Shown here piece by piece: positions 11,368 through 57,798 of a stretch of 58,338 nucleotides of DNA. The notes beneath the pieces are model-generated. The model searched no databases. It worked only from the letters and a program-made list of their open reading frames with translations, and was not told where the DNA came from. Within the stretch, counting starts at the first letter, position 1. Each line of letters starts with the position of its first letter. The translations under genes were made by a program, and so were the position numbers. The stretch is from NCBI GenBank assembly GCA_007127105.1, contig SLAA01000117.1:1-58338 (forward strand), written 5' to 3'. The stretch is from Spirochaetales bacterium. GTDB taxonomy: Bacteria > Spirochaetota > Spirochaetia > DSM-27196 > SLAA01.

Positions 11368-11892
11368 ATGCGCAACGAAAACCTCCGGGCCTACTTCGAT
11401 GAAGCTCGTATTCTGCGGCTTTTTTTTCTCGAGTTACTCGTCGCGCTCCTGATCATTGCCGACACCTTTGTCTATATCCTGCTGTCTGAGTATGTCGGGG
11501 TATTTATCTTACTTGCCGCTGGTGGCGTAACCGCCCTGCCTGGAATCTACATTGTCTATAACTCAATTCAGAACACCCTTGGCGCGGTACGAGCACGCGT
11601 GCGCATGGGCCGGTATCCTCGCCTTGAGTACGCCGGTCTTGCCGGTCTCCTTTTGTCCGGAATACTGCTTGTCCTACCGGGCTTCTTCTCAGACATCATT
11701 GGCGTGCTGCTCTACATTCTACCAATACGGCTCGCGGTTGGCTTATTGATTTGCTCCCGGCTTGAGGCCCCGCTCAATGACGCCTACGAGCATCTTAAGC
11801 TTGAAGAGTACACCGGCCTCTCAACGCATCCCGCCGTGCCTGCCGCCGAGACTCAAAGTAACGACGAAACACTCACTCAAGAACCGTCCTGA
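11368..11892 (+). CDS. fxsA: FxsA-family membrane protein
   Basis: A 174-residue integral membrane protein. FxsA proteins are small inner-membrane proteins with three to four helices; E. coli FxsA is known for relieving phage T7 F-exclusion when overproduced, and its normal role is unknown. The family signature appears as LPGFFSDIIGVLLYILPIR (about 103-121), preceded by two hydrophobic helices (about 17-60). The soluble C-terminal tail is acidic and Thr/Ser-rich. The last 20 bases overlap the 3' end of the convergent addA gene (11873-11892), so each transcript can be antisense to the other's end. Confidence 0.88.
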   Translation: MRNENLRAYFDEARILRLFFLELLVALLIIADTFVYILLSEYVGVFILLAAGGVTALPGIYIVYNSIQNTLGAVRARVRMGRYPRLEYAGLAGLLLSGILLVLPGFFSDIIGVLLYILPIRLAVGLLICSRLEAPLNDAYEHLKLEEYTGLSTHPAVPAAETQSNDETLTQEPS

Positions 11893-18493: not shown

Positions 18494-18522
18494 TTGTCTT
18501 AAAGAATAAGCATAGTTATCAT
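18494..18522 (+). promoter_or_regulatory. sigma-70 promoter of the TPR lipoprotein gene, close to leaderless
   Basis: TTGTCT, 17 bases, TATCAT (18517-18522). The -10 ends eight bases before the ATG at 18531, so the leader would be zero to two bases. No convincing ribosome-binding site precedes the start. Confidence 0.45.
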
Positions 18523-18530
18523 GGGCCGGT

Positions 18531-19922
18531 ATGATTCAATTACGAAGCACTGCCGCGCTGATAGTAGTGACGGCACTTTTTTTTGGCTGCCGAACGGCTC
18601 CGGAGCCAATCCCGGAAGCCCCGCCAGCGGAACCCGAGATCGAACTTGAGCTCGATGCCTACCAGAGCATTAGTTTGTTCGTTGCCGCCGGAGACCCTGA
18701 AGAGGCAATCCGGGCCTACCAGGAAGCTCGCCTCGACGACCCGGACCAACCGGATACAATCGTACTCCTCGCAGGACTGTACCTCTCCGCCGGAGAGTTG
18801 AGTGAAGCAGCGCGTAATCTTGAGCTGGTCTTGAGTCGTGATCCGGACAACGTAGACGGCTTATATCTCAGTGCGTTGCTAGAGGGCTTTCGTGGGGACA
18901 AAAAAGAACAGGAACAACGCCTGCGACGGGTACTGGAGCTCGTACCGGGTGATTCCCGAGCCCATGCGGCACTCGGCGAGCTCCTTCTCGAACAACGCCG
19001 ATACCGTGAGGCACGAACCGAGTTTGAAGCTGTCCTTGAAGGCACCCCGGACGACTTTGTATCCCTCATAGGCCTTGGGAATGTTCACATGCGGACTTCG
19101 CGCCACGAAGAAGCGGAGGAAGTGTTAACCCGCGCGATTGAGGTAGAGCCGGACTTTTCATTTGCGTACCTTGACCGCAGTCGCAGCCGTGTTTTGCAAC
19201 AGAATCTTCACGGAGCCGAGACTGATTTAGACAGGGCCATTGAGCTCGAACCCGGCTTTGTGTGGAACTATCTCGACCGGGGCCGTGTTCGTTTGCAGCG
19301 AAACAACCTTGAAGGGGCTCGCGCCGACTTCACTCGTGTCATTGAGCAAGACCCGGGCATTTTCCTGGCATATGCCTACCGCGCGCGCGCTGCAGATGGA
19401 CTGGGCCTGCGAGCCGAAGCCATTGCCGATTACGAGCGGGTACTTGAAATCCGGCCCGACTACCACGCTGCCTATACGCCACTCGGCACGCTGTACTACG
19501 AGACCGAGCAGTGGAACAAAGCCTTTGAAATGTACAGAAGAGCCGCCCAACAGGATCAAAGCAATGAGAGTCTACCGCTGCTCGCTGCCCTGTCACTCCA
19601 GCGTGCAGGTGAGCAACGGCGCGCCGCAGAATACCTTGGACGCGCAACTCAGCACATACGCCGGGACGGGTCCTTTTACCAAATGGTTAGATACTACATG
19701 AACCCCACCTCAGATACATTAATATTTCGCACGGTTGACCGTGAGCAGGAACGAGTGACGAAAGCACGACTTCAGTTCTTCCTGGCCTCACAGTATCGAA
19801 TACAAGGACGACACAACTCAGCCAACGCCGTAATGCGGCTGGCCGAGGAAAACGGCATTCCGGGTCTCATTGAGACGCGCCTGGCCAAACACGACCTCGA
19901 TGCATATCGAGACGAGAGGTGA
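18531..19922 (+). CDS. TPR-repeat lipoprotein
   Basis: A 463-residue lipoprotein. The signal peptide ends in the lipobox LFFGC, with the acylated Cys at residue 20, then a Pro/Glu-rich spacer. From about residue 50 to 380 there are nine or ten tetratricopeptide repeats, recognisable by the spacing of Ala/Gly/Tyr/Pro positions (for example DFVSLIGLGNVHMRTSRHEE and FAYLDRSRSRVLQQN). The final 80 residues depart from the repeat pattern. TPR lipoproteins scaffold envelope complexes; the partner is unknown. The stop overlaps a GTG that could be read as a start of the next gene, and the two genes are clearly in one operon. Confidence 0.9.
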   Translation: MIQLRSTAALIVVTALFFGCRTAPEPIPEAPPAEPEIELELDAYQSISLFVAAGDPEEAIRAYQEARLDDPDQPDTIVLLAGLYLSAGELSEAARNLELVLSRDPDNVDGLYLSALLEGFRGDKKEQEQRLRRVLELVPGDSRAHAALGELLLEQRRYREARTEFEAVLEGTPDDFVSLIGLGNVHMRTSRHEEAEEVLTRAIEVEPDFSFAYLDRSRSRVLQQNLHGAETDLDRAIELEPGFVWNYLDRGRVRLQRNNLEGARADFTRVIEQDPGIFLAYAYRARAADGLGLRAEAIADYERVLEIRPDYHAAYTPLGTLYYETEQWNKAFEMYRRAAQQDQSNESLPLLAALSLQRAGEQRRAAEYLGRATQHIRRDGSFYQMVRYYMNPTSDTLIFRTVDREQERVTKARLQFFLASQYRIQGRHNSANAVMRLAEENGIPGLIETRLAKHDLDAYRDER

Positions 19923-24159: not shown

Positions 24160-25326
24160 TTAGTACACAAAACGGGCCGCGAGCACCCCATCAATGCCAC
24201 TGAGACGGCTCATCGTGCGTTCATTTGGTGCTTCACTCAGATCTATGATGTTGTACGCTACATCTTCACGGTGTTTATTTATCAGGTCTTCTATGTTGTG
24301 CCCTGCAGACGCGAGCAAGGTAGTGATCTGACCAACCATGTTTGGAACATTCCGGTTTGCAATGGTAATGCGATGTCGTCCACCGCGATCCATACTACAG
24401 CGCGGATAATTCACCGAACTCTCGACGTTGCCGGTTTCCAGGTAGGTCTTGAGCAGTCGTACCGCTGTGACGGCACAGTTGTCCTCGGCCTCCGGAGTTG
24501 AGGCGCCAATGTGTGGAGTCAACAGTACTGACTCATGCCCGGCAAGCCCAGGCTCCGGCAGGTCACTCATGTAGCAGGCAACCTTCCCGTCCTTAAGGGC
24601 GCTAATGAGAGCACTGTGTTGTACTAAGCCTTCACGGCTGAGGTTCAGGATCCGGACTCCGTACTTCATGAGCCTGATGCTGTCTTCATCTATCATGTTG
24701 CGGGTCGTGTCGTTCAAGGGAACATGAATGCTGACGTAGTCGGCCTGCTCATATAAAGATTGCAGCTCGTCGGCACGTTCTACCGACTGGGACAGTTCCC
24801 ATGCGTGCGGGATGGAGATATAGGGGTCATATCCAATGACGCGCATCCCTAACTGCTCGGCGGCGTTACAGACCAAAACACCAACCGAGCCAAGCCCAAC
24901 AACCCCAAGGGTTTTGCCAGCAATCTCCGGCCCGCCAAAGCGCCGCTTCTCACGCTCTACCAGCGCGGGAAGCTCGTCACCTTTGTGAGCGTTGCTGCGC
25001 ACCCACTCCACTCCCTCACAAATACGACGGGAGGACAGCAGAAGCCCGGCAATTACCATCTCTTTGACTGCGTTCGCGTTAGCACCCGGAGTATTGAAGA
25101 CCGGTATCCCGGCGGCGGTGCAGCGGTCAAGGGGGATATTGTCCACACCGGCGCCCGCGCGTGCTATAGCCTTGAGCTGTGAAGGGAGCTCGCGATCATG
25201 GAGCGAGGTGCTCCGAATAAGGTACGCATCCGGGTTTTCCATCTCGGCGCCAGTTGAGTAGTGTTCCGAGTCAAGCAGACTCAGCCCCTTGTCCGAGATA
25301 GTATTAAGCGTCTGGATTCGATACAT
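24160..25326 (-). CDS. serA: D-3-phosphoglycerate dehydrogenase with C-terminal ACT domain
   Basis: A 388-residue enzyme for the first step of serine synthesis, oxidising 3-phosphoglycerate with NAD. The Rossmann core has [16 protein letters not shown] (about 141-156). The catalytic Arg is in LSREGLV, Glu in SDLPEPG, and His in [10 protein letters not shown]. The last 75 residues form an ACT domain ([20 protein letters not shown]), which in this family can bind serine. The ATG at 25326 is preferred because GGAGG stands six bases upstream inside aspS; the two genes overlap by 23 bases. The SDLPEP sequence follows the shorter SerA type found in Firmicutes and many spirochaetes. Confidence 0.92.
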
Positions 25327-27124
25327 CGGCACCCTCCGCTTGAACCCCTGCCTGGTCCAACTCCGCGGTTGTCTTCAGCCCCAGTTCCCTGAGCTGCTGC
25401 TCGTCAACCTCGGCTGGCGAGCCGTCCATGGGTGAAACGGCAACCGCGTTCTTGGGAAAAGCAATGACTTCACGGATGCTTGACTCACCAGCCATAATCA
25501 TGACAAGTCGGTCAAGACCGGGGGCTATACCGCCATGTGGCGGTGGGCCATACCGAAAGGCCTCAAGCAGGAATCCAAAGCGGCGGTGGGCCTCCTCTTC
25601 AGAGAAACCAACAATCTTGAAGACCCGCTTTTGAAGCTCCGGATCATGAATACGAATTGAGCCGGAGGCAAGTTCAAAACCGTTGCACACCAGGTCGTAG
25701 AGATCTCCCTTGACCTCACCAGGATTCGCCTCCATGGTTTCCAGGTACTGTTCCTGCGGCATACTAAACATGTGGTGTGCTGCGTCCCATCCCTGCTCAT
25801 CCTCGTTCCATTCAAAGAGCGGAAAGTCCACAATCCAGGCAAACCGAAACAAGGAGGGATCAATCAGGCCAAGCTCATGCCCAAGTCTCGAGCGCACCGC
25901 TCCAAGAGCTGTGCAGGCAGTTCGCCAGTCGGCACCAACAAACAGCAGAAGGTCTCCGGGCTTAGCCCCATACGCCTCAATAATCTCGGCCGCCACGCCT
26001 TCATAGAAACGCGCGACTCCACCCTCAAGGCCCTGCTCCGTTACCTTCATCCATGCAAGCCCGCCAGCCCCGTAAATCTTTGCAGTCTCTTCCAGGTCAG
26101 TAATCTGCTTGCGTGAGTAGCTTCCACAGCCCTCGGCCTTGAGAACGCGAACCGCACCCCCGGACCCGAGCACCTGTTGGAAAACGGAGAACTCACCCTT
26201 GGGTACAAACTCGGCAAAGTCCTGCAGTTCAAGTCCAAAGCGCAGATCCGGCTTGTCGCTACCGTAAAGGTTCATGGCATCATGGTAGGAAATGCGGGGG
26301 AACGGAGTTTCAAGCCGCAGATCCAGACATCGCTCAAAAACAAAAGAGAACATGCCTTCCATGACCGCAAATACATCATCGCGACCGACAAAGCTCATCT
26401 CTACATCAATCTGAGTGTGCTCAGGCTGTCGGTCACCACGGGCGTCCTCGTCCCGAAAACAATGCGCAAGTTGGAAATAGCGGTCGAATCCCGAGACCAT
26501 CAGCAGCTGCTTGAAGAGCTGTGGCGACTGCGGGAGGGCATAGAACTTGCCGGGATGAAGACGTGAGGGGACCAGAAAGTCACGGGCTCCTTCCGGTGTT
26601 GAGCGAATCATGCTTGGGGTCTCAATCTCGTAGAAGCCCTGGCCGCTCAAATACTCGCGAACGCTCAACATGACCTCATGGCGCAGTTTAATCTTGCGCT
26701 GCATGGAGAAAGACCGCAGGTCGAGGTAGCGATAGCGCAAACGCAGATCGTCTTTCGCATCCGAGCGTTCGTCAATGACGAATGGGGGAACCTCGGACTT
26801 TGAGAGCAGGTGAATCTCGGTCGCGGCAACCTCTATATCTCCGGTCGCCATCTCGGAGTTTTTCATAGCGTCCGGTCGTGCCCGCACCCGACCACGCACC
26901 GCAACGCAGTATTCCGGCTTTAATGCTGCACCGGCACTTTGCAAAACCTCGGGAGCGTCCTGGTCGATAACAACCTGTGTAAGGCCGTATCGATCCCGGA
27001 GGTTAATAAACTGTATTCCGCCGTGATCGCGATTGCGATGCACCCAACCGTTAAGTACAACCTCTTTTTCAAGGTCGGCGGCGCGCAGTTCGCCGCAAGT
27101 TACGCTACGTTTCATGCTCTCCAT
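25304..27124 (-). CDS. aspS: aspartyl-tRNA synthetase, bacterial type
   Basis: A 606-residue class II synthetase that charges tRNA-Asp. Visible parts are the N-terminal OB anticodon-binding domain (LNGWVHRNRDHGGIQF), motif 2 with FRDEDARGDRQPEHTQIDVE, the bacterial GAD insertion (about residues 290-420), and motif 3 GIAPGLDRLVM. There are two possible starts. The ATG at 27124 (MESMKRS) has no Shine-Dalgarno sequence but a fitting promoter for leaderless translation. The ATG at 27115 (MKRS) starts closer to the family's usual N-terminus and has a closely spaced GGAG. Its 3' end overlaps serA. First gene of aspS-serA-PPIase-radA. Confidence 0.96.
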   Translation of the reverse strand: MESMKRSVTCGELRAADLEKEVVLNGWVHRNRDHGGIQFINLRDRYGLTQVVIDQDAPEVLQSAGAALKPEYCVAVRGRVRARPDAMKNSEMATGDIEVAATEIHLLSKSEVPPFVIDERSDAKDDLRLRYRYLDLRSFSMQRKIKLRHEVMLSVREYLSGQGFYEIETPSMIRSTPEGARDFLVPSRLHPGKFYALPQSPQLFKQLLMVSGFDRYFQLAHCFRDEDARGDRQPEHTQIDVEMSFVGRDDVFAVMEGMFSFVFERCLDLRLETPFPRISYHDAMNLYGSDKPDLRFGLELQDFAEFVPKGEFSVFQQVLGSGGAVRVLKAEGCGSYSRKQITDLEETAKIYGAGGLAWMKVTEQGLEGGVARFYEGVAAEIIEAYGAKPGDLLLFVGADWRTACTALGAVRSRLGHELGLIDPSLFRFAWIVDFPLFEWNEDEQGWDAAHHMFSMPQEQYLETMEANPGEVKGDLYDLVCNGFELASGSIRIHDPELQKRVFKIVGFSEEEAHRRFGFLLEAFRYGPPPHGGIAPGLDRLVMIMAGESSIREVIAFPKNAVAVSPMDGSPAEVDEQQLRELGLKTTAELDQAGVQAEGADVSNPDA

Positions 27125-27131
27125 TGAGCGG

Positions 27132-27160
27132 ATGCTATCGAAGCAGCGCTAATTCTGCAA
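27132..27160 (-). promoter_or_regulatory. sigma-70-like promoter of aspS with leaderless geometry
   Basis: On the minus strand TTGCAG (27160-27155), 17 bases, TAGCAT (27137-27132), then seven bases to the ATG at 27124. The -35 is a poor match. Support comes from exact spacing, the missing ribosome-binding site and the same layout at other unit-leading genes here. Confidence 0.4.
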
Positions 27161-31526: not shown

Positions 31527-31555
31527 TAGGCAAGCCGAGAGAGGGCGACTACACT
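31527..31555 (+). promoter_or_regulatory. sigma-70 promoter of rsmI with leaderless geometry
   Basis: TAGGCA, 17 bases, TACACT (31550-31555), then six bases to the ATG at 31562. No ribosome-binding site is present, so transcription probably starts at the A of the start codon. Confidence 0.45.
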
Positions 31556-31561
31556 CAATTC

Positions 31562-32242
31562 ATGGGTCGTGTATACATGGTTGCTACACCAATTGGAAAT
31601 CTGAAAGACATCACCTACCGCGCGGTTGAAATTCTCCATTCCGTGAACCTTATCCTGTGTGAAGACACCAGACATAGCCGCAAGTTGTTCCAAGCCTACG
31701 ATATTCGAGCAGAACTCTGGAGCTGCCCTCAGCAGCATCAACGCCGGGTCGCCGAGCAGCTTTGCGAACGCCTTGGCGAGGATGGCGAAGCAGCGTATGT
31801 CAGCGACGCCGGAACTCCGGGAATAAGCGATCCAGGAAGTGCCTTGGTTGAGGTGCTGTACAAGGCTGGGCATGAAGTGGTCCCCATTCCAGGCCCTTCC
31901 GCGCTTTCGGCCATCCTGAGCATTGATCCTTTCCCGGGAAAGACAGTAATTTTTGAAGGTTTTTTGTCGATCAAACGAGGAAAACGCCGATCTAGAATAA
32001 ACGAGTTGCTTGCCAGCGGTGATAAGTTTATCCTGTACGAGTCACCGTATCGTATAGTTGCAGCATTGGCCGATATGGCCGACGCTGAACCGGAGCGGCA
32101 GCTGGTGCTTGGTAGGGAAATGACTAAAATTCATGAGGAGTATCGTTTTGGCACGAGCGCTGAGATCCACAACGACTTCGCCCGACGTGATTCCATTAAG
32201 GGTGAGTTCGCACTGCTTGTATCGGGTGCAAAAAAGCGTTAA
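31562..32242 (+). CDS. rsmI: 16S rRNA (cytidine-2'-O)-methyltransferase
   Basis: A 226-residue SAM-dependent enzyme that methylates the ribose of C1402 in 16S rRNA at the ribosomal P site. The tetrapyrrole-methylase fold is clear: VATPIGNLKDITYRAVEIL at the N-terminus, CEDTRHSRKL, AYVSDAGTPGISDPGS (SAM site), and PIPGPSALSAIL. The family average is about 280 residues; this one ends soon after GEFALLVSG, so it has the short C-terminus. It begins a transcription unit, and its stop TAA lies inside the -35 element of the flgM promoter. Confidence 0.96.
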   Translation: MGRVYMVATPIGNLKDITYRAVEILHSVNLILCEDTRHSRKLFQAYDIRAELWSCPQQHQRRVAEQLCERLGEDGEAAYVSDAGTPGISDPGSALVEVLYKAGHEVVPIPGPSALSAILSIDPFPGKTVIFEGFLSIKRGKRRSRINELLASGDKFILYESPYRIVAALADMADAEPERQLVLGREMTKIHEEYRFGTSAEIHNDFARRDSIKGEFALLVSGAKKR

Positions 32243-36296: not shown

Positions 36297-38813
36297 CTAC
36301 AGCGCCCCGAAACTCTTCATCTGCAGAGCCATTTCCCGTAGCCGTCGTTCCACCAGGGCATTCACACTGCCTCCACGGTAGCCGCCCTTTAAGGTCCGGC
36401 CGCCCGCTTCCAGGCCGGTCAGGATTTCCATGGCCTCATCTACGGTCGCCACCGACCATACATGGAACATACCTTCATCAAGGGCCGCTTGCAGAGCTCT
36501 TGAAGGCATGAGGTTGGCAAGGTTGCCTCGGGGAATAATAACCCCCTGCGACCCGCTGAGTCCCAGCTTGCAGCAAACCTCATAAAAACCTTCAATTTTC
36601 TCGTTGATCCCGCCCACAGCCTGTATCTGCCCCATCTGGTTGACCGATCCGGTGACAGCTATGTCCTGCCGCAATGGCAACTCTGCAATAGAGCTGAGCA
36701 GCACATAGACCTCGCTTGAGGAGGCCGAGTCTCCATCTACCTCGATATAGGACTGTTCAAAACAGATTGATCCGCGCACCGAGAGCGGAAAGTCCTGGGC
36801 GTACTTCGAGCGGAGATATCCCTCCAGTATGTACACTCCCTTGTCATGAATCTCTCCAGAGAGCCCGGACTCGCGTTCAATATTGACAATGCCCTCGCTC
36901 CCGGGTGCGGTGCGCGCCGTGATAAGCATGGGCCGTGCAAAGGCGTAGTACCCACGGTCAAGTATTGCGAGCCCGTTAATGCGTCCTACCGCCATCCCGG
37001 AAACGGCCACGAGCAGCTCTCCCGAGAGTATCTGTTCGTCAATTTTTTCTTGCGGCAGGTTTGAAAGAAAGGCCCGTTCGGTCACGGCCGCCTCGACCGA
37101 TTCTCGGGTAATTGTGCTGTCCTTGCTCCGGCGGGCACAGTAGTCGGACTCACGCAGGAGGTCAGCAATGCGGGAGAAGCGCGTGCTGTACAAATTCCGG
37201 AACTCACCAAGCCGAACTGCGTGCTCAAGAATAGCGGCAATCCCACTTGCTTCGGGCTCAAGCAATGACTCCTGGACCGCGATCATGCGTACAAAAGCAA
37301 TGTAGCGCGCAGTGGTGTCGGCGTTACGTGGCATAACGGAGTCAAACTCAGCGGTGACCTTGAAGAGCTTCCCAAAGTCGTCGTCACCGTAATAGAGGGC
37401 GTCGTAGACATGCTCGGCGGCAGTCACAATGAGCTTAAAGCGTACCTCAATCGGTTCCGGCCTGAGAAACCCCGTATGGGCCTGCGGGCCGGGCACGGTA
37501 CGAATCTCGGTTATTCCGTCCTGCAGCACCCGCTTACAGGCTTGCCACACATCTTCTTGGGTGAAAAGGTCCTCGGCCCGGAGCACAAGAAAGCCACCGG
37601 ACGCCTTGGCGACCGCACCTACACGTAAACTCCGGTAGTCGGGAACAGCGGACTCATCACCGCTCTGCATAGACTCAATACTGCCGAACATCGTCTGGTA
37701 GTCCGGATTGCTCTCAAATACAACCGGTGCGGAACGAGAGTCGGTGTGATCAACCACGATATTCACGCCGTATCGCTGGAGCTGCTCGGAGCTGCTGGGG
37801 CCTCCCCCGGCGTCCAGGCCTCCATTCTCACCATCAACCACGAATAGCTGCAGGTTTTCCAGGATGTCCCTGGTGAAGGCATCCAGATAGGTCTTCACGG
37901 CTGGAGCCGAAAAGCGCGCACTCAAACGACCCGTAGCAGCACGCAGGTGCGGCTCAATGGCCTTCCTGCGCAGTTCGGAAAGCTGCGCGTCAATGTTTTC
38001 ACGGTCAAGTCGGAGACGAAGCATGATGCGATGCATCTCTTCCAGGTACGCGTAATACCGTGTACGAGTTTCTTCCAGTCCTGCTCGCTCACGTTTTCCC
38101 GACGAAACTTCCCGCTCGAGCTCTGCGAAGCTTGCCGGTTCGCCTTCTATGAGAGGCACGAGCTCAGCCTTAGCTGCCTCTCCGGGTGAAGCGACAACCC
38201 GGAAACCCTCTCGGCCTATTCGATCCTCGAACTCTGCAATCGTTTGTGCCTCACGGGTCTGAACCGATTGAAGCAAGGCGTCGCGCTCCGAGATGAATTC
38301 CTGATCCTCGGTGAGCAGTTCAATGCTGCGGCGTATCTGGGCCACGCAGTCGCCTAGCCCTGTCCGAAACTCGCGAGCGCTTCCGGGCTCGAAATACAGA
38401 ACCCGTGGCTCGTAGGGGCAACTGAAATTATGGACATAGGCAATGTCACGCAGGCCCGAAATGTCACCGGAGAACTCGGCGAGCACGCGTTCTACGGCGG
38501 TCCGCTTACCGACCCCAGATGGGCCGGTGACTATGACGTTGTAACCCCTGTTTCGTATTTCTAGAGCCATGCGCAAGGCTCGCAAGGCCCGGGGTTGCCC
38601 AATGATACCAAACTCGCCGTTCTCACCCTGGTCGGGCAGCTCGGCCTCGGTTGTGTTCCGCGCCTGCTCGGCGGCAGTTATGCCAGCGTTAACTTCTTCT
38701 GGGTCAATGGTGAATGTGTAGTCCTGCGATTGTGCTCTCAAGCGCTGTTCGGCGGGTAGCTCTTCACCGGAACTCCCAAGTTGCGAGCCGGTGCTGTAGT
38801 TCTTCTCAATCAT
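36297..38813 (-). CDS. LonC-type AAA-fused serine protease
   Basis: An 838-residue Lon-family protease of the type with an unusual AAA module (AAA_32) and a long coiled-coil insert. Walker A is GPSGVGKRT near residue 95 and the insert spans about 165-300. The protease domain at the C-terminus has catalytic Ser in IEVDGDSASSSE and Lys in INEKIEGFYEVC, with ITGS-like AVTGSVNQMGQIQAVGG between them. In related proteins the AAA part is often catalytically weak. The ATG at 38813 is chosen; a TTG at 38834 with GGGG upstream is the alternative. A -10 TATGAT lies nine bases before the ATG, which would give a very short leader. Confidence 0.9.
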   Translation of the reverse strand: MIEKNYSTGSQLGSSGEELPAEQRLRAQSQDYTFTIDPEEVNAGITAAEQARNTTEAELPDQGENGEFGIIGQPRALRALRMALEIRNRGYNVIVTGPSGVGKRTAVERVLAEFSGDISGLRDIAYVHNFSCPYEPRVLYFEPGSAREFRTGLGDCVAQIRRSIELLTEDQEFISERDALLQSVQTREAQTIAEFEDRIGREGFRVVASPGEAAKAELVPLIEGEPASFAELEREVSSGKRERAGLEETRTRYYAYLEEMHRIMLRLRLDRENIDAQLSELRRKAIEPHLRAATGRLSARFSAPAVKTYLDAFTRDILENLQLFVVDGENGGLDAGGGPSSSEQLQRYGVNIVVDHTDSRSAPVVFESNPDYQTMFGSIESMQSGDESAVPDYRSLRVGAVAKASGGFLVLRAEDLFTQEDVWQACKRVLQDGITEIRTVPGPQAHTGFLRPEPIEVRFKLIVTAAEHVYDALYYGDDDFGKLFKVTAEFDSVMPRNADTTARYIAFVRMIAVQESLLEPEASGIAAILEHAVRLGEFRNLYSTRFSRIADLLRESDYCARRSKDSTITRESVEAAVTERAFLSNLPQEKIDEQILSGELLVAVSGMAVGRINGLAILDRGYYAFARPMLITARTAPGSEGIVNIERESGLSGEIHDKGVYILEGYLRSKYAQDFPLSVRGSICFEQSYIEVDGDSASSSEVYVLLSSIAELPLRQDIAVTGSVNQMGQIQAVGGINEKIEGFYEVCCKLGLSGSQGVIIPRGNLANLMPSRALQAALDEGMFHVWSVATVDEAMEILTGLEAGGRTLKGGYRGGSVNALVERRLREMALQMKSFGAL

Positions 38814-38898: not shown

Positions 38899-38927
38899 TT
38901 GGAAAAAGCCAACAGGCGTTCTATACT
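38899..38927 (+). promoter_or_regulatory. sigma-70 promoter of nif3 with leaderless geometry
   Basis: TTGGAA, 17 bases, TATACT (38922-38927), then six bases to the ATG at 38934. The expected transcript start is the A of the ATG. There is no ribosome-binding site. Confidence 0.6.
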
Positions 38928-38933
38928 GCCTCC

Positions 38934-39695
38934 ATGCTACTTCAAGAACTGGATCACTATCTGCGATCGCACTTGGCTATTGATGAGCTGCAGGCTGTCG
39001 ACAAAAGCCTCAACGGTATTCAGGTGGGACGACGCACACAGGATGTACGCCGCGTTGCATGCGCAGTCGACGCCTGCGCCGAAACCTTTGACCGTGCCGC
39101 CGAATGGGGTGCCGACGTGCTTGTTGTGCATCATGGTTTGTACTGGGGGCGCGTGCTCCCTTTAACCGGTGAGCACTATGAGCGCATTCGGAAGCTCATG
39201 GATGCCGATATCGCACTGTACGCAGTGCATCTGCCCTTAGATATGCACCCCGAGTTCGGCAACAACGCCGAAATGGCGAAGGCTCTTCATCTCAAGGAGA
39301 CGAAACCTTTTGGGAAGTATCATGGCTACGAGATAGGGGTTTCGGGGCGCCTTGAACCCGCGGTTCGCAGAGAGGAAGTTGTTGACAGCCTGTTCGCCGA
39401 CCTCGGGAATCCGCTTGCGGTACTCCCTTTTGGCCCGGAAATGGTCAGCAGTGTGGGAATTGTTTCGGGTGGTGCAGTCTTCGAGGTGGAGCAAGCCATT
39501 GAGCAAGGGCTCGATCTCTACATCACCGGTGATGCCTCGCACACTGTTTACCATCGTTGCATGGAGGCCGGAATCAATGTAGTTTTTGGTGGCCATTACG
39601 CAACGGAAGTCTGGGGGCCACGCGCGCTCGGGGAACGAGTGGCTAAAGACCTGGGACTCGAAACGAGCTTCATTGACGTGCCAACCGGCCTCTAA
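38934..39695 (+). CDS. Nif3/YbgI-family metal-binding protein
   Basis: A 253-residue member of the Nif3-like (YbgI, DUF34) family with a dinuclear metal site. The ligands are in VVHHGLYWG (about 62), AVHLPLDMHPEFGNN (about 97-111) and GGHYATE (about 217-223). The family has been described as GTP cyclohydrolase I type 2-like, but the real activity is not settled. The gene is the first of a run with lspA and a small membrane protein. It is short for the family because it lacks the inserted PII-like domain seen in longer members. Confidence 0.9.
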   Translation: MLLQELDHYLRSHLAIDELQAVDKSLNGIQVGRRTQDVRRVACAVDACAETFDRAAEWGADVLVVHHGLYWGRVLPLTGEHYERIRKLMDADIALYAVHLPLDMHPEFGNNAEMAKALHLKETKPFGKYHGYEIGVSGRLEPAVRREEVVDSLFADLGNPLAVLPFGPEMVSSVGIVSGGAVFEVEQAIEQGLDLYITGDASHTVYHRCMEAGINVVFGGHYATEVWGPRALGERVAKDLGLETSFIDVPTGL

Positions 39696-47835: not shown

Positions 47836-49194
47836 CTAGTCTTCTCGCAGGGCACGAAACTGAAGCTCTTCACCAGCGCAGAACGGGACAACCCCGTGAT
47901 ACTCTGCCGGAACAGTCCACGGTTGGCGCTCAAGTCTCAGATACCCGGAGTTTAGGGGCAGCCGGTAGAACTCCGCCCCATAACGTGAAACAAAAGCCTC
48001 CATCGCCTCCACCCACGCCGGACGATGCACCTCTCCACCCGCACTCAAAACCCCGGCGCCCGCCTGGGAGTCGCTCGAACCTCTCCTATCACCGTTTCCA
48101 TTACCGTTCCCATTACCGCTTCCGTTTCCGTTGCCTCCTCCGGCCTGACCACTGCCACTTCCGGTGCCAGCGCCGCCAGCGCCGCCACGGCCGCCACTTC
48201 CGGCGCCGAGCCCTCCGACACCTATATGCGCCTCAAAAAAGCTCGCGAGTAAGGGGAGCGATACCGGCGCGGTGTACAACCCGGCGCAACCACAGTCACA
48301 CTCCTTATGCTCACGGGTATGCGGGGCGCTATCCGAACCAAAAAAGAACTTGGGCTCGCCGTTGAGGACAACTTCACGCAGCATCGCTCGATCAGCCGGT
48401 GTTTTCACGACCGGTTTGCAGAAGTGATGCGGCCGGAGTTCACCACCAATGAGGTCGTCAAGCGTCAGCAGAAGATGGTGCACCGTTATGGTGGCAGACA
48501 CGCGGGGTGGTAAATCACGCACCGCCCGTACGGCGTCAGCGGTAGAAAGGTGTTCCAGCACGACTCGCAGGCCCGGAAAGCGCGTCACGATGGTCTCCAG
48601 CTTGGAGAGAAAAGCCGTCTCCCGCTCCAGGCAAAAGGCGTCCGGAACCTCGCCATGAATGCATAGAACAATATCGTGTTCCTGCATTGCCTCAAGCGCT
48701 GGAAATATCGACTCAATGGTACGAACACCGTCCTCGGAGTTCGTCGTAACACCGGCAGGATAGAGCTTGCCGGCCTTTACGCCGCCGCCAGCCAGCGCCG
48801 TTACCGCCTCTGCATCATGTCGCGGGGCAAGTTTGAAGCTCATAAGCGGTTGGAAGCGGGGGGGATTCGGCCCAAGACCCTCGACAATCTGGCTTCGATA
48901 CCGTTCAAGATCGTCAGCAGTCGAGACCGGTGGTAAGGTATTAGGCATAACCAAGGCACGCGCAAATCCAGCAGCAAGATCCTGCGTGTAAGCCGCTAAG
49001 GCTGTGCCTTGACGCAAGTGGACGTGGAAGTCATCCGGTGTACGGAGGTGATATGTCTCGAAGGCCTCGCCCGGCACCTCCGGCTCCGGTGAGACCACAG
49101 CAGCTGGAGCAGCAGCTGGAGCAGCAGCAGGGCGGCCACTTTGTGCTATGGCTTCGGTGCCGGACTCGTACATTACTACGCTTTTGAGCTTCAT
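47836..49194 (-). CDS. pyrC: dihydroorotase (PyrC type) with Gly/Asn-rich insertion
   Basis: A 452-residue zinc enzyme closing N-carbamoyl-aspartate to dihydroorotate in pyrimidine synthesis. Family length is about 345. Active-site parts are FHVHLR (His57, His59), KAGKLYPAG (Lys143, carboxylated in the family), CIHGE (His180), LEHLST (His215), and FFFGSDSAPH (Asp288). Two low-complexity regions are added: an Ala/Pro run at the N-terminus (about 23-45) and a Gly/Asn/Ser-rich stretch (about 325-388), after the catalytic Asp. The start is ATG 49194 or the in-frame ATG 49173, neither with a strong ribosome-binding site. Confidence 0.93.
   Translation of the reverse strand: MKLKSVVMYESGTEAIAQSGRPAAAPAAAPAAVVSPEPEVPGEAFETYHLRTPDDFHVHLRQGTALAAYTQDLAAGFARALVMPNTLPPVSTADDLERYRSQIVEGLGPNPPRFQPLMSFKLAPRHDAEAVTALAGGGVKAGKLYPAGVTTNSEDGVRTIESIFPALEAMQEHDIVLCIHGEVPDAFCLERETAFLSKLETIVTRFPGLRVVLEHLSTADAVRAVRDLPPRVSATITVHHLLLTLDDLIGGELRPHHFCKPVVKTPADRAMLREVVLNGEPKFFFGSDSAPHTREHKECDCGCAGLYTAPVSLPLLASFFEAHIGVGGLGAGSGGRGGAGGAGTGSGSGQAGGGNGNGSGNGNGNGNGDRRGSSDSQAGAGVLSAGGEVHRPAWVEAMEAFVSRYGAEFYRLPLNSGYLRLERQPWTVPAEYHGVVPFCAGEELQFRALRED
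48034..48222 (-). repeat. low-complexity Gly/Asn insertion in pyrC
   Basis: About 63 codons rich in Gly, Asn and Ser, with a near-regular Gly-Asn alternation encoded by repeated CCGTTTC/CCATTAC-type hexamers (48091-48135, plus-strand reading). The frame is kept. Confidence 0.85.
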
Positions 49195-49308
49195 ATGGCC
49201 CGAGCATATCCCTGCGCCGGGCTTTCGGCAAGCCTTTTGAACTACTCTGCAGTACCTGCAGCCTGGGGGAAGAGTGGTCCTGGCTTCCTCGCGAGTACTG
49301 GCCCGCAC

Positions 49309-49337
49309 TTGACGAGCACCGCTGGCCCCGGCATGCT
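49309..49337 (+). promoter_or_regulatory. possible leaderless promoter of the DUF4954 gene
   Basis: TTGACG, 17 bases, CATGCT (49332-49337), then six bases to the ATG at 49344. The -10 matches only half of the consensus, and no ribosome-binding site is present. Confidence 0.35.
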
Positions 49338-49343
49338 CATACT

Positions 49344-51263
49344 ATGATACCTTCCGAACTCGCCGCAAGCGACCGCATTGAGTTACTCCTGAACGCGCCC
49401 GAGATGAACAGGTGTGCACAGAAGATTGCCTCGTTGAGTGCTCGACGTGAGGAAGTATTGCGTCTCTGTAGGCCTGCTGATGCGGAACAGATTCGCCTTT
49501 TGAAGGCGAACGGAAACATCTGTGAGGACTGGAGTCAACTTCTTCTGGGGCCCTTATTCGATCCGGACCGAGTACACGGCTCTCAGTTCCTGGGACGCTG
49601 TGCCCTCATGGGTACCAACCCCAAGGACGCCGTTGAGGCCGGAGCGCTCGGCTCGCCTGCCAACCAAACAGAAACATCCGCAGCGCACACCTCCGGATAT
49701 CCGCAACTCCCGGCTGGCATCTACAACTCAACCCTGCAGGACTGTGTGGTAGACCACACCGTCTCGCTCTACCACTGCCCGGCGCTCATGGGCTACTACA
49801 TTGGGCACGACTGTAGCATTACCGCGTCGCGACTTGTGGCAATACCGCTGGAACGTCGTATGGACAGCCCGGAGCTGTATGCCGCAAACGCGCTGAGCCC
49901 CACCAATCTTGTGGAGGCCGGGCTGGAAACCGGTGGACGGTCTCTACCTTTTCTTCCAGAAATGACGCTCGAACTCGCATGTCTCATAGCGGAGAATCCC
50001 GTAGATCCAGACTGCCTGAAGGCACTTGAGCAGACACTCAACGCACGCAGCACCCAACAAGCAGAAGGATACCGCCTCATTGGCCCCGGCTCATGGATAA
50101 GTCACTGCCGCTTGCTCCGCAATAGTTATGTTGCCAGCACCACAGTTATTGACGGTGCGGAGTACATTACTGAGTCAGTTCTTCTGTCGGCAGTGAGTAG
50201 CGGTACGCGGGTAAGCGGCGGCGCAGGCATAGCCGGAGCAGTTCTGCAAGAGGGTGTCACGGTAGACACCGCAGCGCGGGTTCGTTCCTCTTTACTGCTC
50301 AGTGGCTCAGGCGCCGAGGACGGAGCACGGATACGGGACTGCCTTATTGCCGGTGGCACCGTAGTCGCGGCAGGCGAGGCTACAGCGAGCTTCATTGGAC
50401 CTTTTGTCGGAATGCACCATAGCTCCTTGCTCATTGCCGCCTACTGGCCCGAGGGAAGGGGAAACATTGGATATGGGGCAAATGTGGGATCCAACCATAC
50501 ATCCCGCATGCCGGACCAGGAAATCCATCCTGGCGAAGGCATGTTCTTTGGCCTGGACACCGTGGTTAAGTTTCCGGCACATTTTCGAAGGGCGCCGTAC
50601 ACCGTACTTGCTTCCGGCGTAAGCACCCTGCCGCAACGTCTTGAGTTACCTTTCTCGCTGATCCTGGAAGACACCCCGCCGCCGGGTTCGGGCGCCGGAT
50701 TAACGCGCATTATCCCAGGGTGGATGCTGCGTGAGAACCTCTACGCCGTTATTCGTACCGAGCATAAGCTCAAACGCCGATGCGGTTCATTTGTCGCGCA
50801 AGACTTTGATCCAAGTCCCTTTCGACCGAGCATTGCCGAGTATGTACGGGCGGCGCTCAAAGGCCTTCGGAGTCTATCCGAGGCCTCTTGGTATCTACCC
50901 AAGGACCTTGCCGCACTCGGTAAGAACTACATGCGTGGAGAGGACCTTGCCCCTGCAATTGCCGCCTATGAAGAGTACCTAAGCGTAGTAGAAGGGCGCG
51001 AACTGACACGGGAAAAGGCTACTGACAACAGCCCTGTGACCACAGCGCAGCGACAGCTGCTGCTACGCTACATCGAAATTCTTGGCGCCTATCCGGAAAG
51101 GGCAACTGCTTCACGCCGTAAGGATATGGACCGCGGAATCAGGATCATCCCGGACTATGAATGCACCCACCAGCCTCCCGAGGAGGAGCCCTTGCTGCAG
51201 GAGTTCCGGTTAGAGACAGCCAAGGAACGAGAGCAGGCCAAGGATATGCTCACGAGACAGTGA
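49344..51263 (+). CDS. DUF4954 left-handed beta-helix protein
   Basis: A 639-residue cytoplasmic protein with a large hexapeptide-repeat (LbH) section. Repeats of the IxGxxxI type appear at about 130-160 and 255-365 (GPGSWISHCRLLRNSYVAST, RVRSSLLLSGSGAEDGARIR, DCLIAGGTVVAA). The N- and C-terminal parts are helical and family-specific. Members occur mainly in spirochaetes and Bacteroidetes and resemble sugar-nucleotide transferases in the repeat fold, but the activity is not known. The ATG at 49344 has no ribosome-binding site; the HD-domain gene begins 17 bases after its stop. Confidence 0.88.
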   Translation: MIPSELAASDRIELLLNAPEMNRCAQKIASLSARREEVLRLCRPADAEQIRLLKANGNICEDWSQLLLGPLFDPDRVHGSQFLGRCALMGTNPKDAVEAGALGSPANQTETSAAHTSGYPQLPAGIYNSTLQDCVVDHTVSLYHCPALMGYYIGHDCSITASRLVAIPLERRMDSPELYAANALSPTNLVEAGLETGGRSLPFLPEMTLELACLIAENPVDPDCLKALEQTLNARSTQQAEGYRLIGPGSWISHCRLLRNSYVASTTVIDGAEYITESVLLSAVSSGTRVSGGAGIAGAVLQEGVTVDTAARVRSSLLLSGSGAEDGARIRDCLIAGGTVVAAGEATASFIGPFVGMHHSSLLIAAYWPEGRGNIGYGANVGSNHTSRMPDQEIHPGEGMFFGLDTVVKFPAHFRRAPYTVLASGVSTLPQRLELPFSLILEDTPPPGSGAGLTRIIPGWMLRENLYAVIRTEHKLKRRCGSFVAQDFDPSPFRPSIAEYVRAALKGLRSLSEASWYLPKDLAALGKNYMRGEDLAPAIAAYEEYLSVVEGRELTREKATDNSPVTTAQRQLLLRYIEILGAYPERATASRRKDMDRGIRIIPDYECTHQPPEEEPLLQEFRLETAKEREQAKDMLTRQ

Positions 51264-55320: not shown

Positions 55321-56412
55321 TTGAAACATCTTCGGTTCCTCTTGCCACTATTCCTTGTTGCACTTCACCTGAACGCGCTTGTTTTCATTGGACGGGCGGC
55401 CGGTGAGACACCCTTCTCCGACTCGGAATACATTGTGCGCCGAGCACTTCAACTCCTGCCGGACGACTACTCCCCCATACTCTCCAACGGCGAGGCACAT
55501 GCCCTCGTTCGTGACCTTCATGGGGAAGGCATGGTCGATGTAGTCATAGCAGCCGTTCGCGGAAAGAACGTTGAGAACCGGCTCGAGGTACTTGCCGATA
55601 TCTCACGCCTGTATGTTCGCGGATTGAGTTCACCCGAACTCTTCGTTTTTGTCTACACAAGCACCCGGCACCGACTCGAAGAGCGCGGCCGCTACTCCAT
55701 TGGCGATCCACCGGTGTTTGAAGGCCTCCATTTTCGACGGCTGGCGCGACCCGAAGCTCCCATGTCGGTGAACGCAGTTATCGTTGAGACCTTGCGCAGT
55801 ACGGGACGGGTTGAGGAATGGTTAATATTCGGCCCAGGGGTAGAGCAGCCAACGCGAATGACTATTCGCAACACCCACTCGGAACGCTGGCGCAGCACCG
55901 AAGGAGGGGAGCAGGGGGTGCTTGAGTTGCTCCGGTATCAAACCGCGTACGAGCAGGGCTCGGGAATTGAGACATTTATAACCCGTTATACCTGGGATGG
56001 GCGGCAGTATCGTGGTGAGGAGTCGCTTGCGGTGGTACGAAGTCTGAACTCCTTCCTTGAACGCTGCGAGACCCTGCTCAACAACCATGAGTATGATGCC
56101 TTTGTTGAGTTTGCCTTAGCTCCACACAAAGTCGACAGACCCGAGACCGCGCTGCAACAAACCTTCATACCGGTGGCGGACGAGTTTGAGGCCAAGGCCG
56201 AGCATCCGTTTCCGAGTGGCGATATTAATGCTGAACTCACTCATAGATATATCTTGCCTCGGGTCTTACAGAATCCCTTCCCTCTCGTTGACTCACCATC
56301 CTTTGAGATCTACGTCCGGACCCTTGGGCCACATCAGGGACTCTACCGTGCCCGTGTCAGAATGGCTGAGGACCCATTCTCGGACTCGCCCTACTTCCTC
56401 ACCAGGCCTTAA
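55321..56412 (+). CDS. exported protein of unknown function
   Basis: A 363-residue protein with a signal peptide (Lys-His-Arg start, core LLPLFLVALHLNALVF, cleavage near Gly-Arg-Ala-Ala-Gly). The start is TTG at 55321 with AGGGAG seven bases upstream, and no ATG closer to the signal peptide. The mature part has helices around residues 35-100 and beta-rich regions after that. Stretches such as VEEWLIFGPGVEQPTRMTIRN suggest a lipocalin-like or beta-barrel fold, but no family is named. It stands alone between lysC and murA. Confidence 0.75.
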   Translation: MKHLRFLLPLFLVALHLNALVFIGRAAGETPFSDSEYIVRRALQLLPDDYSPILSNGEAHALVRDLHGEGMVDVVIAAVRGKNVENRLEVLADISRLYVRGLSSPELFVFVYTSTRHRLEERGRYSIGDPPVFEGLHFRRLARPEAPMSVNAVIVETLRSTGRVEEWLIFGPGVEQPTRMTIRNTHSERWRSTEGGEQGVLELLRYQTAYEQGSGIETFITRYTWDGRQYRGEESLAVVRSLNSFLERCETLLNNHEYDAFVEFALAPHKVDRPETALQQTFIPVADEFEAKAEHPFPSGDINAELTHRYILPRVLQNPFPLVDSPSFEIYVRTLGPHQGLYRARVRMAEDPFSDSPYFLTRP

Positions 56413-56457: not shown

Positions 56458-56475
56458 CCGGTATTTTTTTACCGG
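56458..56475 (+). terminator. CCGGTA hairpin with T loop between the exported protein gene and murA
   Basis: CCGGTA (56458-56463), a loop of six T, then TACCGG (56470-56475). The T-run sits in the loop instead of after the stem, so it is not a classical terminator. It directly precedes the murA -35. Confidence 0.25.
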
Positions 56476-56479
56476 TCTG

Positions 56480-56508
56480 TTGACAACGGCCGAGCCCGCC
56501 GATACCAT
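56480..56508 (+). promoter_or_regulatory. sigma-70 promoter of murA with leaderless geometry
   Basis: TTGACA, 17 bases, TACCAT (56503-56508), then six bases to the ATG at 56515. The -35 and spacing are ideal and no ribosome-binding site is present, so transcription should start at or next to the start codon. Confidence 0.65.
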
Positions 56509-56514
56509 GCGCCC

Positions 56515-57798
56515 ATGTATCGATACCAGATTGAAGGCGGTATCCCCGTAAAGGGACGAATACGCGCCGCAGGAAATAAGAACGCTGCCCTACCCTGTAT
56601 CGCGGCAGCTTTGCTCACAGATGAGACTGTCCGTCTTCGAAACATACCAGATATCGAGGACGCGCATGTCATGTTTGAAATCCTTGAGAAGCTCGGCGCC
56701 ACGGTGAACCGCCTTGAGACCAAGGGTGAGTACGAAGTGACCACACATGACATTGTCGGTTCGGAACTTCCGGTCGACCTCGCGCGCAAAATCAGGGCAT
56801 CAATTCTCTTTGCCGGGCCAATGCTCGCTCGCACCGGAAAGGTCGTGCTCCCACCACCCGGCGGTGACGTAATTGGACGCCGGCGTCTTGACAGCCACTT
56901 TCTGGCACTTTCGGCGCTTGGTGCGCGGGTTGAAGTTGACGGCGCCTATAGGCTTACCGCCAACAAACTCAAGGGAGCCGACATATTCATGGATGAAGCG
57001 TCGGTAACCGCTACCGAGAATGCCCTTATGGCGGCAGTCCTCGCCGAAGGCAGTACCGTCATTGAAAACGCCGCCTCTGAACCCCACATACAGGATCTCT
57101 GCAACATGCTCAACGCAATGGGAGCATCAATAAGTGGAATTGGCTCAAACATCCTCCGTATTGAGGGACGCGATAAACTCCACGGAGCGGACTTCACTAT
57201 TGGGGCCGACTTCATGGAGGTTGGATCCTTTATTGGGCTGGCTGCCGTTACGCGTGGAGAACTCACCATTGAGAACGCAGCCCCACACCATTTGAAAATG
57301 GTCAAGATTGCGTTTGCCAAGCTTGGCATCTACTGGGAGGTCGACGGTGAGGACCTGCACATTCCCGCTCATCAGGAGTTGCGAGTTCATCCCGATATGG
57401 GTGGCATGATTCCCAAAATCGACGACGCTCCATGGCCGGGATTCCCACCGGATCTCACCAGCATCATGACGGTTGTTGCAACTCAGGTAGAAGGCACCGT
57501 ATTGGTACACGAGAAGATGTTTGAGTCGCGCATGTTTTTCGTGGACAAGCTCATTGGTATGGGGGCCAGAATTGTTCTGTGCGATCCGCACCGAGCTGTG
57601 GTCAGCGGGCCTTCACGGCTGAGCGGTTCAGAGCTCGTTTCACCCGACGTACGTGCAGGTATGGCCATGCTGCTCGCGGCGCTCTGTGCCGAAGGTTCCA
57701 GCACTATTCACAACGTATACCAGATTGAACGTGGCTACGAGAACCTCACGGTTCGTCTGCAGAGTCTGGGGGCCCGAATTGAGCGGGTGCCTTCATAG
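56515..57798 (+). CDS. murA: UDP-N-acetylglucosamine 1-carboxyvinyltransferase with Cys-to-Asp exchange
   Basis: A 427-residue enzyme of peptidoglycan synthesis, adding enolpyruvate to UDP-GlcNAc. Family sequences are GRIRAAGNKNAALPCIAAALL, ILFAGPMLARTGKV, EVGSFIGLAAVTRG, and TDLTSI-like PDLTSIMTVVATQVEG. In most bacteria the loop PGGCxIG carries the catalytic Cys that fosfomycin alkylates; here it is PGGDVIG with Asp118, so the enzyme should be active but fosfomycin-resistant, as described for mycobacteria, chlamydiae and Borrelia. No ribosome-binding site precedes the ATG. Confidence 0.97.
   Translation: MYRYQIEGGIPVKGRIRAAGNKNAALPCIAAALLTDETVRLRNIPDIEDAHVMFEILEKLGATVNRLETKGEYEVTTHDIVGSELPVDLARKIRASILFAGPMLARTGKVVLPPPGGDVIGRRRLDSHFLALSALGARVEVDGAYRLTANKLKGADIFMDEASVTATENALMAAVLAEGSTVIENAASEPHIQDLCNMLNAMGASISGIGSNILRIEGRDKLHGADFTIGADFMEVGSFIGLAAVTRGELTIENAAPHHLKMVKIAFAKLGIYWEVDGEDLHIPAHQELRVHPDMGGMIPKIDDAPWPGFPPDLTSIMTVVATQVEGTVLVHEKMFESRMFFVDKLIGMGARIVLCDPHRAVVSGPSRLSGSELVSPDVRAGMAMLLAALCAEGSSTIHNVYQIERGYENLTVRLQSLGARIERVPS

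Follow-up and report, generated by a model that had tools for sequence, protein, structure and literature searches.

The murA gene of this Spirochaetales bacterium is very probably expressed from a leaderless mRNA, transcribed from a sigma-70-type promoter whose spacing would place the transcript start on the A of the ATG start codon or one or two bases from it. The gene lies near one end of a 58,338-nucleotide stretch of DNA (contig SLAA01000117.1), which we refer to as the window. A preliminary description of the window had interpreted murA in this way, and two kinds of sequence evidence support that interpretation: an excess of the same promoter-to-start-codon geometry in the genome and its conservation at orthologous genes.

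The murA promoter and start codon

We define d as the number of bases between the end of the -10 hexamer and the start codon and a Shine-Dalgarno (SD) core as AGGA, GGAG, or GAGG at positions -18 to -4. The layout first described for murA, TTGACA-N17-TACCAT followed after six bases by ATG and lacking an SD sequence, proved correct to the base when the sequence was read again (Table 1); none of the three SD cores occurs within 18 bases upstream of the ATG. Against TIGR01072 the translated gene scored 517.7 bits (cutoff, 392.7), with residues 1 to 424 aligned to profile positions 1 to 416 of 416, a full-length match above the equivalog cutoff. The start codon is well fixed, because the frame holds no ATG, GTG, or TTG between the upstream in-frame stop at 56410 to 56412 and position 56515, and because starting instead at 56611, the next in-frame start inside the gene, would cost the matched domain 32 residues.

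Promoters were scored with a generic sigma-70 matrix, the weights of which were not fitted to this organism, and a score of at least 5 was counted as a promoter. The murA promoter scored 13.4; in the genome sample described below, both strands included, 29 of 1,453,564 positions attained that value. Both hexamers and the spacer, which lies within the expected 17 ± 1 bp, are those of a sigma-70-type promoter, the sigma factor itself being a prediction. A -35 hexamer that begins at -35 and a -10 hexamer that occupies -12 to -7 correspond to the textbook register for transcription beginning at the A. The gene has the features expected of leaderless genes: a core promoter whose -10 element ends about 5 to 8 bases before the start codon (d = 6), an AUG start codon, rarely replaced by GUG in such genes, and no SD site.

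We propose that the housekeeping (sigma-70-type) RNA polymerase would read murA from TTGACA-N17-TACCAT and that transcription would begin at the A of the start codon or within one or two bases of it. A start on the A would yield an mRNA with neither a 5′ leader nor an SD site, and a ribosome carrying initiator tRNA would then, by analogy with known leaderless mRNAs, bind the 5′-terminal AUG. Initiation of this kind is favored by IF2 and 70S ribosomes and is spared by kasugamycin.

An open reading frame on the same strand, at 55321 to 56412 (363 amino acids), precedes murA across a 102-bp gap. Its stop codon falls in the murA frame, and it had no match in NCBIfam or Pfam at an E value of 0.001. 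Given the shared strand and the 102-bp gap, read-through from this frame could yield some leadered murA mRNA. Directly upstream of the murA -35 element, at 56458 to 56475, lies a perfect 6-bp inverted repeat (CCGGTA/TACCGG) with six T residues between its arms; it may mark where the preceding unit ends or act as an operator, and the predicted fold of the region is no better than that of shuffled sequences (z = -0.35).

Table 1. Predicted promoter elements, start codons, and genes in the window
Feature	Position	Strand	Basis or remark
-35 element TTGACA of murA promoter	56480-56485	+	Starts at -35 (A of ATG, +1)
Spacer of murA promoter	56486-56502	+	17 nt
-10 element TACCAT of murA promoter	56503-56508	+	-12 to -7; ends 6 bases before ATG
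GCGCCC between murA -10 and start codon	56509-56514	+	Read from sequence
murA start codon ATG	56515-56517	+	Read from sequence
Predicted murA transcript start (+1)	56515	+	A of start codon, C at -1; predicted from promoter spacing
murA, UDP-N-acetylglucosamine 1-carboxyvinyltransferase, 427 aa	56515-57798	+	TIGR01072 and translation
TTGGAA-N17-TATACT-6-ATG, Nif3-like gene (38934-39695)	38899-38936	+	Sequence; relatives
TTGACG-N17-CATGCT-6-ATG, DUF4954/hexapeptide gene (49344-51263)	49309-49346	+	
TACACT (31550-31555), 6 bases, ATG, tetrapyrrole-methylase-family gene (31562-32242)	31527-31564	+	Weak -35
TTGCAG-N17-TAGCAT-7-ATG, class II (D/K/N) tRNA synthetase with GAD domain (25304-27124), probably aspS	27122-27160	-	
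TTGTCT-N17-TATCAT-8-ATG, TPR protein gene (18531-19922)	18494-18533	+	
TTGCCG-N17-TATGCT-8-ATG, dihydroorotase gene	49192-49231	-	Start codon less certain

Other genes in the window

The preliminary description had seen the same layout at four or five other unit-leading genes of the window. We recovered this recurrence, with d = 6 at 31562, 38934, and 49344, d = 7 at 27124 (minus strand), and d = 8 at 18531 and 49194 (minus strand). Two further promoter-like pairs have wider spacings, one with d = 9 at 38813 (minus strand), before a LonB-like protease gene, and one with d = 10 at 11368 (plus strand), before an FxsA-like gene; judged by their spacing, these would give leaders of about 3 to 4 bases. 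Scores of the recurrences, d = 9 and d = 10 sites included, ranged from 7.7 to 11.2. In the longest form of the dihydroorotase-like open reading frame (47836 to 49308, minus strand), the match to the family profile does not begin until residue 87; our script placed the start at 49194, and the gene may in fact start further in.

Promoter spacing across the genome

The draft genome is incomplete and comprises 3,080,707 bases in 264 contigs, of which the window is contig 161. We sampled the window and 60 further stretches, together 729,222 bases (54.5% G+C, about a quarter of the genome), in which 577 genes were called by a codon-usage script that is blind to upstream sequence; the script is simple and its starts are imperfect. 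Genes that were divergent from their neighbor or separated by more than 60 bases from a preceding gene on the same strand were classed as unit leading (n = 267) and those with a gap of 30 bases or less as operon internal (n = 184), while the 126 calls in neither class were not counted.

Promoters at exactly d = 6 preceded 21 of the 267 unit-leading genes, compared with 0 to 9 genes at any other distance from 0 to 45. At d = 5 to 8 the count was 40/267, against 14 to 18 in each of seven further 4-base bins that together reach to 36 bases. In 200 dinucleotide shuffles of the leading upstream regions, the corresponding counts averaged 2.3 (maximum, 6) at d = 6 and 9.4 (maximum, 17) at d = 5 to 8. 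Operon-internal genes had no excess (5/184 at d = 5 to 8, 4 to 8 in other bins), nor did 300 kb of Escherichia coli K-12 treated with the same script (0/151 at d = 6; 6/151 at d = 5 to 8 and 2 to 9 in other bins). One batch of stretches included some that had been picked in the knowledge of a match; without that batch the d = 6 count was 14/136, and it was 10/111 when the window was removed as well.

Over the whole genome, exact matches to TTGACA and TANNNT followed by ATG numbered 28 at d = 4 to 8 versus 9 at d = 20 to 24. Within 0 to 30 bases there were 82 such matches, 26 of them at d = 4 to 8; the four 5-base bins that follow held 13, 7, 11, and 9, and the single distance d = 6 accounted for 11 of the matches. 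The totals of 28 and 26 differ because a second ATG at two promoters is listed in one count only. A reversed-pattern control (28 versus 2 in this genome) was set aside as weak, since any real promoter beats it; distances were compared instead, and the excess is then real but smaller. The check proposed at the outset, to count the geometry genome-wide against a shuffled control, thus returned a clear excess, obtained in the sampled quarter and with exact patterns on the whole genome.

The excess over the other bins amounts to about 25 of 267, which suggests that close to 10% of unit-leading genes are detectably leaderless. Because the score threshold misses weak promoters and the start calls are imperfect, we estimate the leaderless share of unit-leading genes in this genome, as predicted from promoter geometry, at 10 to 25%.

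Translation signals differed in parallel with promoter spacing. Where a leading gene had a promoter at d = 5 to 9, an SD core was rare (2/47), whereas 89 of the 220 other leading genes had one (Fisher P = 3e-7). Operon-internal genes had been credited with clear ribosome-binding sites, which is true of most (SD core in 114/184) and not of all. ATG was the start codon in 39/40 leading genes with a promoter at d = 5 to 8 versus 333/411 other leading and internal genes (P = 0.007), and a pyrimidine at -1 was modestly commoner at d = 6 (16/21) than in other leading and internal genes (237/411). We did not find a 16S rRNA gene in this incomplete genome; the anti-SD sequence listed for Spirochaetia is CCUCCUU (PMC10783764). 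These patterns suggest a leaderless mode that would serve a minority of unit-leading genes, with ordinary SD-led translation alongside it and commonest inside operons.

Conservation at murA relatives

For comparison we took the best 80 of 581 murA matches in named genomes. Four loci (L040, L063, L077, and L106), in which the match did not begin at a start codon, were dropped to leave 76 anchored on the start codon, and removal of 5 near-copies left 71. All are labeled Spirochaetota except one Holophagaceae bacterium. The closest murA among the named loci listed (L029) encodes a 98% identical protein and comes from a MAG labeled Spirochaetaceae bacterium PLM2.Bin37.

TANNNT stood exactly at d = 6 in 35 of the 71 nonredundant relatives, while at 40 other distances (0 to 40) it was found in 1.25 on average and at most 4; promoters with a score of at least 5 ended at d = 6 in 39/71. 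TTGAC was found again at the -35 position in many relatives. A locus from a genome labeled Gracilinema caldarium (L076), a cultured spirochaete, has TTGACC-N17-TATGGT-6-ATG before murA. In the 45 relatives with a promoter at d = 5 to 8, little information resides in the spacer or in the six bases ahead of the start codon; the exceptions are G at -14 (0.46 bits), C at -17 and -16 (weaker), and C or T at -2 and -1 (0.41 bits at each position). The -35 and -10 columns are informative in these rows as a product of how the rows were selected. A fixed register amid drifting intervening bases would be the expected trace of selection on spacing.

A promoter at d = 5 to 8 is missing in 26 of the 71 nonredundant relatives, and in the window's own part of the murA tree such promoterless relatives include L030, L034, L036, L038, L044, and L053. 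Of these 26, 19 are no more than 39 bases from an upstream open frame on the same strand and 15 carry an SD core, whereas among the 45 promoter-bearing relatives 15 lie within 36 bases of such a frame and 8 have an SD-like core. When the leaderless label was placed on a murA tree of 77 rows, the 49 rows that carry it fell on both sides of the midpoint, and their distribution required 11 changes, compared with 22.8 for shuffled labels. The predicted leaderless state of murA is thus clustered on the tree and has been lost or gained several times.

These comparisons bear on other explanations of the murA layout. One is that murA is transcribed mainly from a promoter upstream of the open reading frame at 55321 to 56412, together with that frame, so that its mRNA has a leader and is translated independently of an SD site or by coupling, and the box pair before the ATG is minor or silent. 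The shared strand, the 102-bp gap, and a murA frame that is open back to the stop of the preceding frame are all in keeping with this arrangement. The position of 19/26 promoterless relatives close behind a same-strand frame indicates that murA does join operons, although some of these frames may be spurious. Against cotranscription here stand the lack of an SD core before murA and the inverted repeat between the two frames, though its folding is unremarkable beside shuffles, and a distant promoter leaves the register of -10 element and ATG in 35/71 relatives unexplained. We regard this arrangement as improbable.

Slightly less probable still is a very short 5′ untranslated region, with the murA transcript starting 3 to 8 bases before the ATG. 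In bacteria, start sites scatter over a few bases, and layouts with d = 7 to 10 are also present, but d = 6 is the commonest spacing both in this genome and among murA relatives, so that the usual +1 would fall on the A. That a good promoter match merely happens to lie near the start codon, at a meaningless distance, has a negligible chance of being true: promoter-like strings are common and TACCAT agrees with TATAAT at only 4 of 6 positions, but so high a score is rare in the sample, the exact register recurs in about half of the relatives, and d = 6 is overrepresented relative to shuffled sequences, other distances, operon-internal genes, and E. coli.

Leaderless transcription of murA therefore remains our preferred reading, and the register on which it draws is also conserved at a second gene of the window. 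We looked for the Nif3-like gene in 46 genomes of the order and detected it in 40, of which the best 30 loci were used (the window's own included and near-copies kept). TANNNT stood at d = 6, 7, or 8 in 22/30 of these loci and at other distances from 0 to 30 in at most 1 each; the other 8 loci scored at most 0.3 at d = 5 to 8.

Breadth across Spirochaetota

Breadth was assessed with an exact pattern, TTGACA-N16-18-TANNNT, with ATG at the stated distance. In 61 genomes (this genome and near relatives), there were 1,572 matches at d = 4 to 8 versus 797 at d = 20 to 24, and the nearer spacing was the more frequent in 56 of the 61. The excess was lacking in five near relatives, with equal counts in G009 and G027 and lower counts in G040, G051, and G054. 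The last three belong to the same class or order and offer a contrast set for the question of why leaderless genes are missing from some lineages.

Across the phylum, the spacing excess (d = 5 to 7 versus d = 17 to 19) was present in 120 of 149 Spirochaetota genomes. The organism's own class had 800 matches versus 356 (29/33 genomes higher), and other classes had 3,010 versus 1,853 (91/116 genomes higher); the excess was lacking in 29/149 genomes, 4/33 in the own class and 25/116 in other classes. Five families in the phylum sample had a ratio below 1. Fifteen of 16 genomes behind named murA loci gave 383 matches at d = 5 to 7 versus 26 for the reversed pattern, which is a weak control. Three Spirochaetota genomes, G169, G179, and G186, had 129, 100, and 66 matches at d = 5 to 7 versus 43, 43, and 35 at d = 17 to 19 and perhaps represent lineages with heavy leaderless use.

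Discussion

Leaderless expression is itself known, also within this phylum; what is new here is its breadth and its gene-by-gene conservation. Leptospira interrogans belongs to another class of the phylum. In that organism, differential RNA sequencing revealed leaderless transcripts as a common feature, with the majority of mapped primary starts 0 to 10 bases from the start codon according to the abstract, 430 to 450 genes having a primary start within 10 bases of it, and 184 and 170 genes starting exactly on it at two temperatures (PMC5243855). Starts were measured there and are predicted here, and the promoter motif is plain in our genome, whereas the sections concerned of the Leptospira study give none outside sigma-54 (PMC5243855).

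According to the predictions of Zheng et al. (2011), 6 of 18 spirochaete genomes contain leaderless genes, which make up 3.9% of genes on average (PMC3160421). Theirs is likewise a computational signal, and the passages on these genes are silent on conservation at orthologous genes, which we see for murA (PMC3160421). A 2023 paper on the Borrelia ribosome states that leaderless transcripts are frequent in B. burgdorferi (PMC10618245). The initial remark that leaderless mRNAs have had little attention in spirochaetes was therefore too strong, given work published in 2011 (PMC3160421), 2017 (PMC5243855), and 2023 (PMC10618245). Our searches of the open-licence literature found no other spirochaete start-site study besides the Leptospira one (Treponema, Borrelia burgdorferi, and Brachyspira were sought) and no description of a conserved leaderless murA or of such breadth over uncultured Spirochaetales.

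Outside the phylum, there is a resemblance to Deinococcus-Thermus, where TANNNT a few bases before the open reading frame, the layout shared with spirochaete murA, was tested and acts as a real promoter that gives leaderless mRNA (PMC12340547). There the -10 element alone suffices and an added -35 element strengthens it, whereas the murA promoter in our genome combines a complete TTGACA with a 17-bp spacer; the motif is found on about 30% of open reading frames in that group (PMC12340547), and the share here looks lower. Mycobacterium tuberculosis, of yet another phylum, has an extensive leaderless transcriptome that was measured, whereas ours is predicted (PMC3898074).

These results offer an exact, testable start-site prediction for a cell wall gene across many spirochaetes, most of which are represented only by metagenomes. 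A register conserved among orthologues, in which promoter and ATG are fixed and most bases between them are free, is a strong sign of leaderless transcription that can be read from sequence where RNA data are absent. Gene callers that rely on SD sites may misplace the starts of some unit-leading genes.

More speculatively, leaderless expression may be an old, phylum-wide second mode of expression, in which murA and the Nif3-like gene are held, across deep sequence divergence, by selection for leaderlessness itself; we consider this idea possible but rather doubtful. If it is true, selected leaderlessness could, for example, allow translation for cell wall synthesis to continue while SD-led initiation is reduced. 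The conservation described above raises the question of why particular genes remain leaderless for so long.
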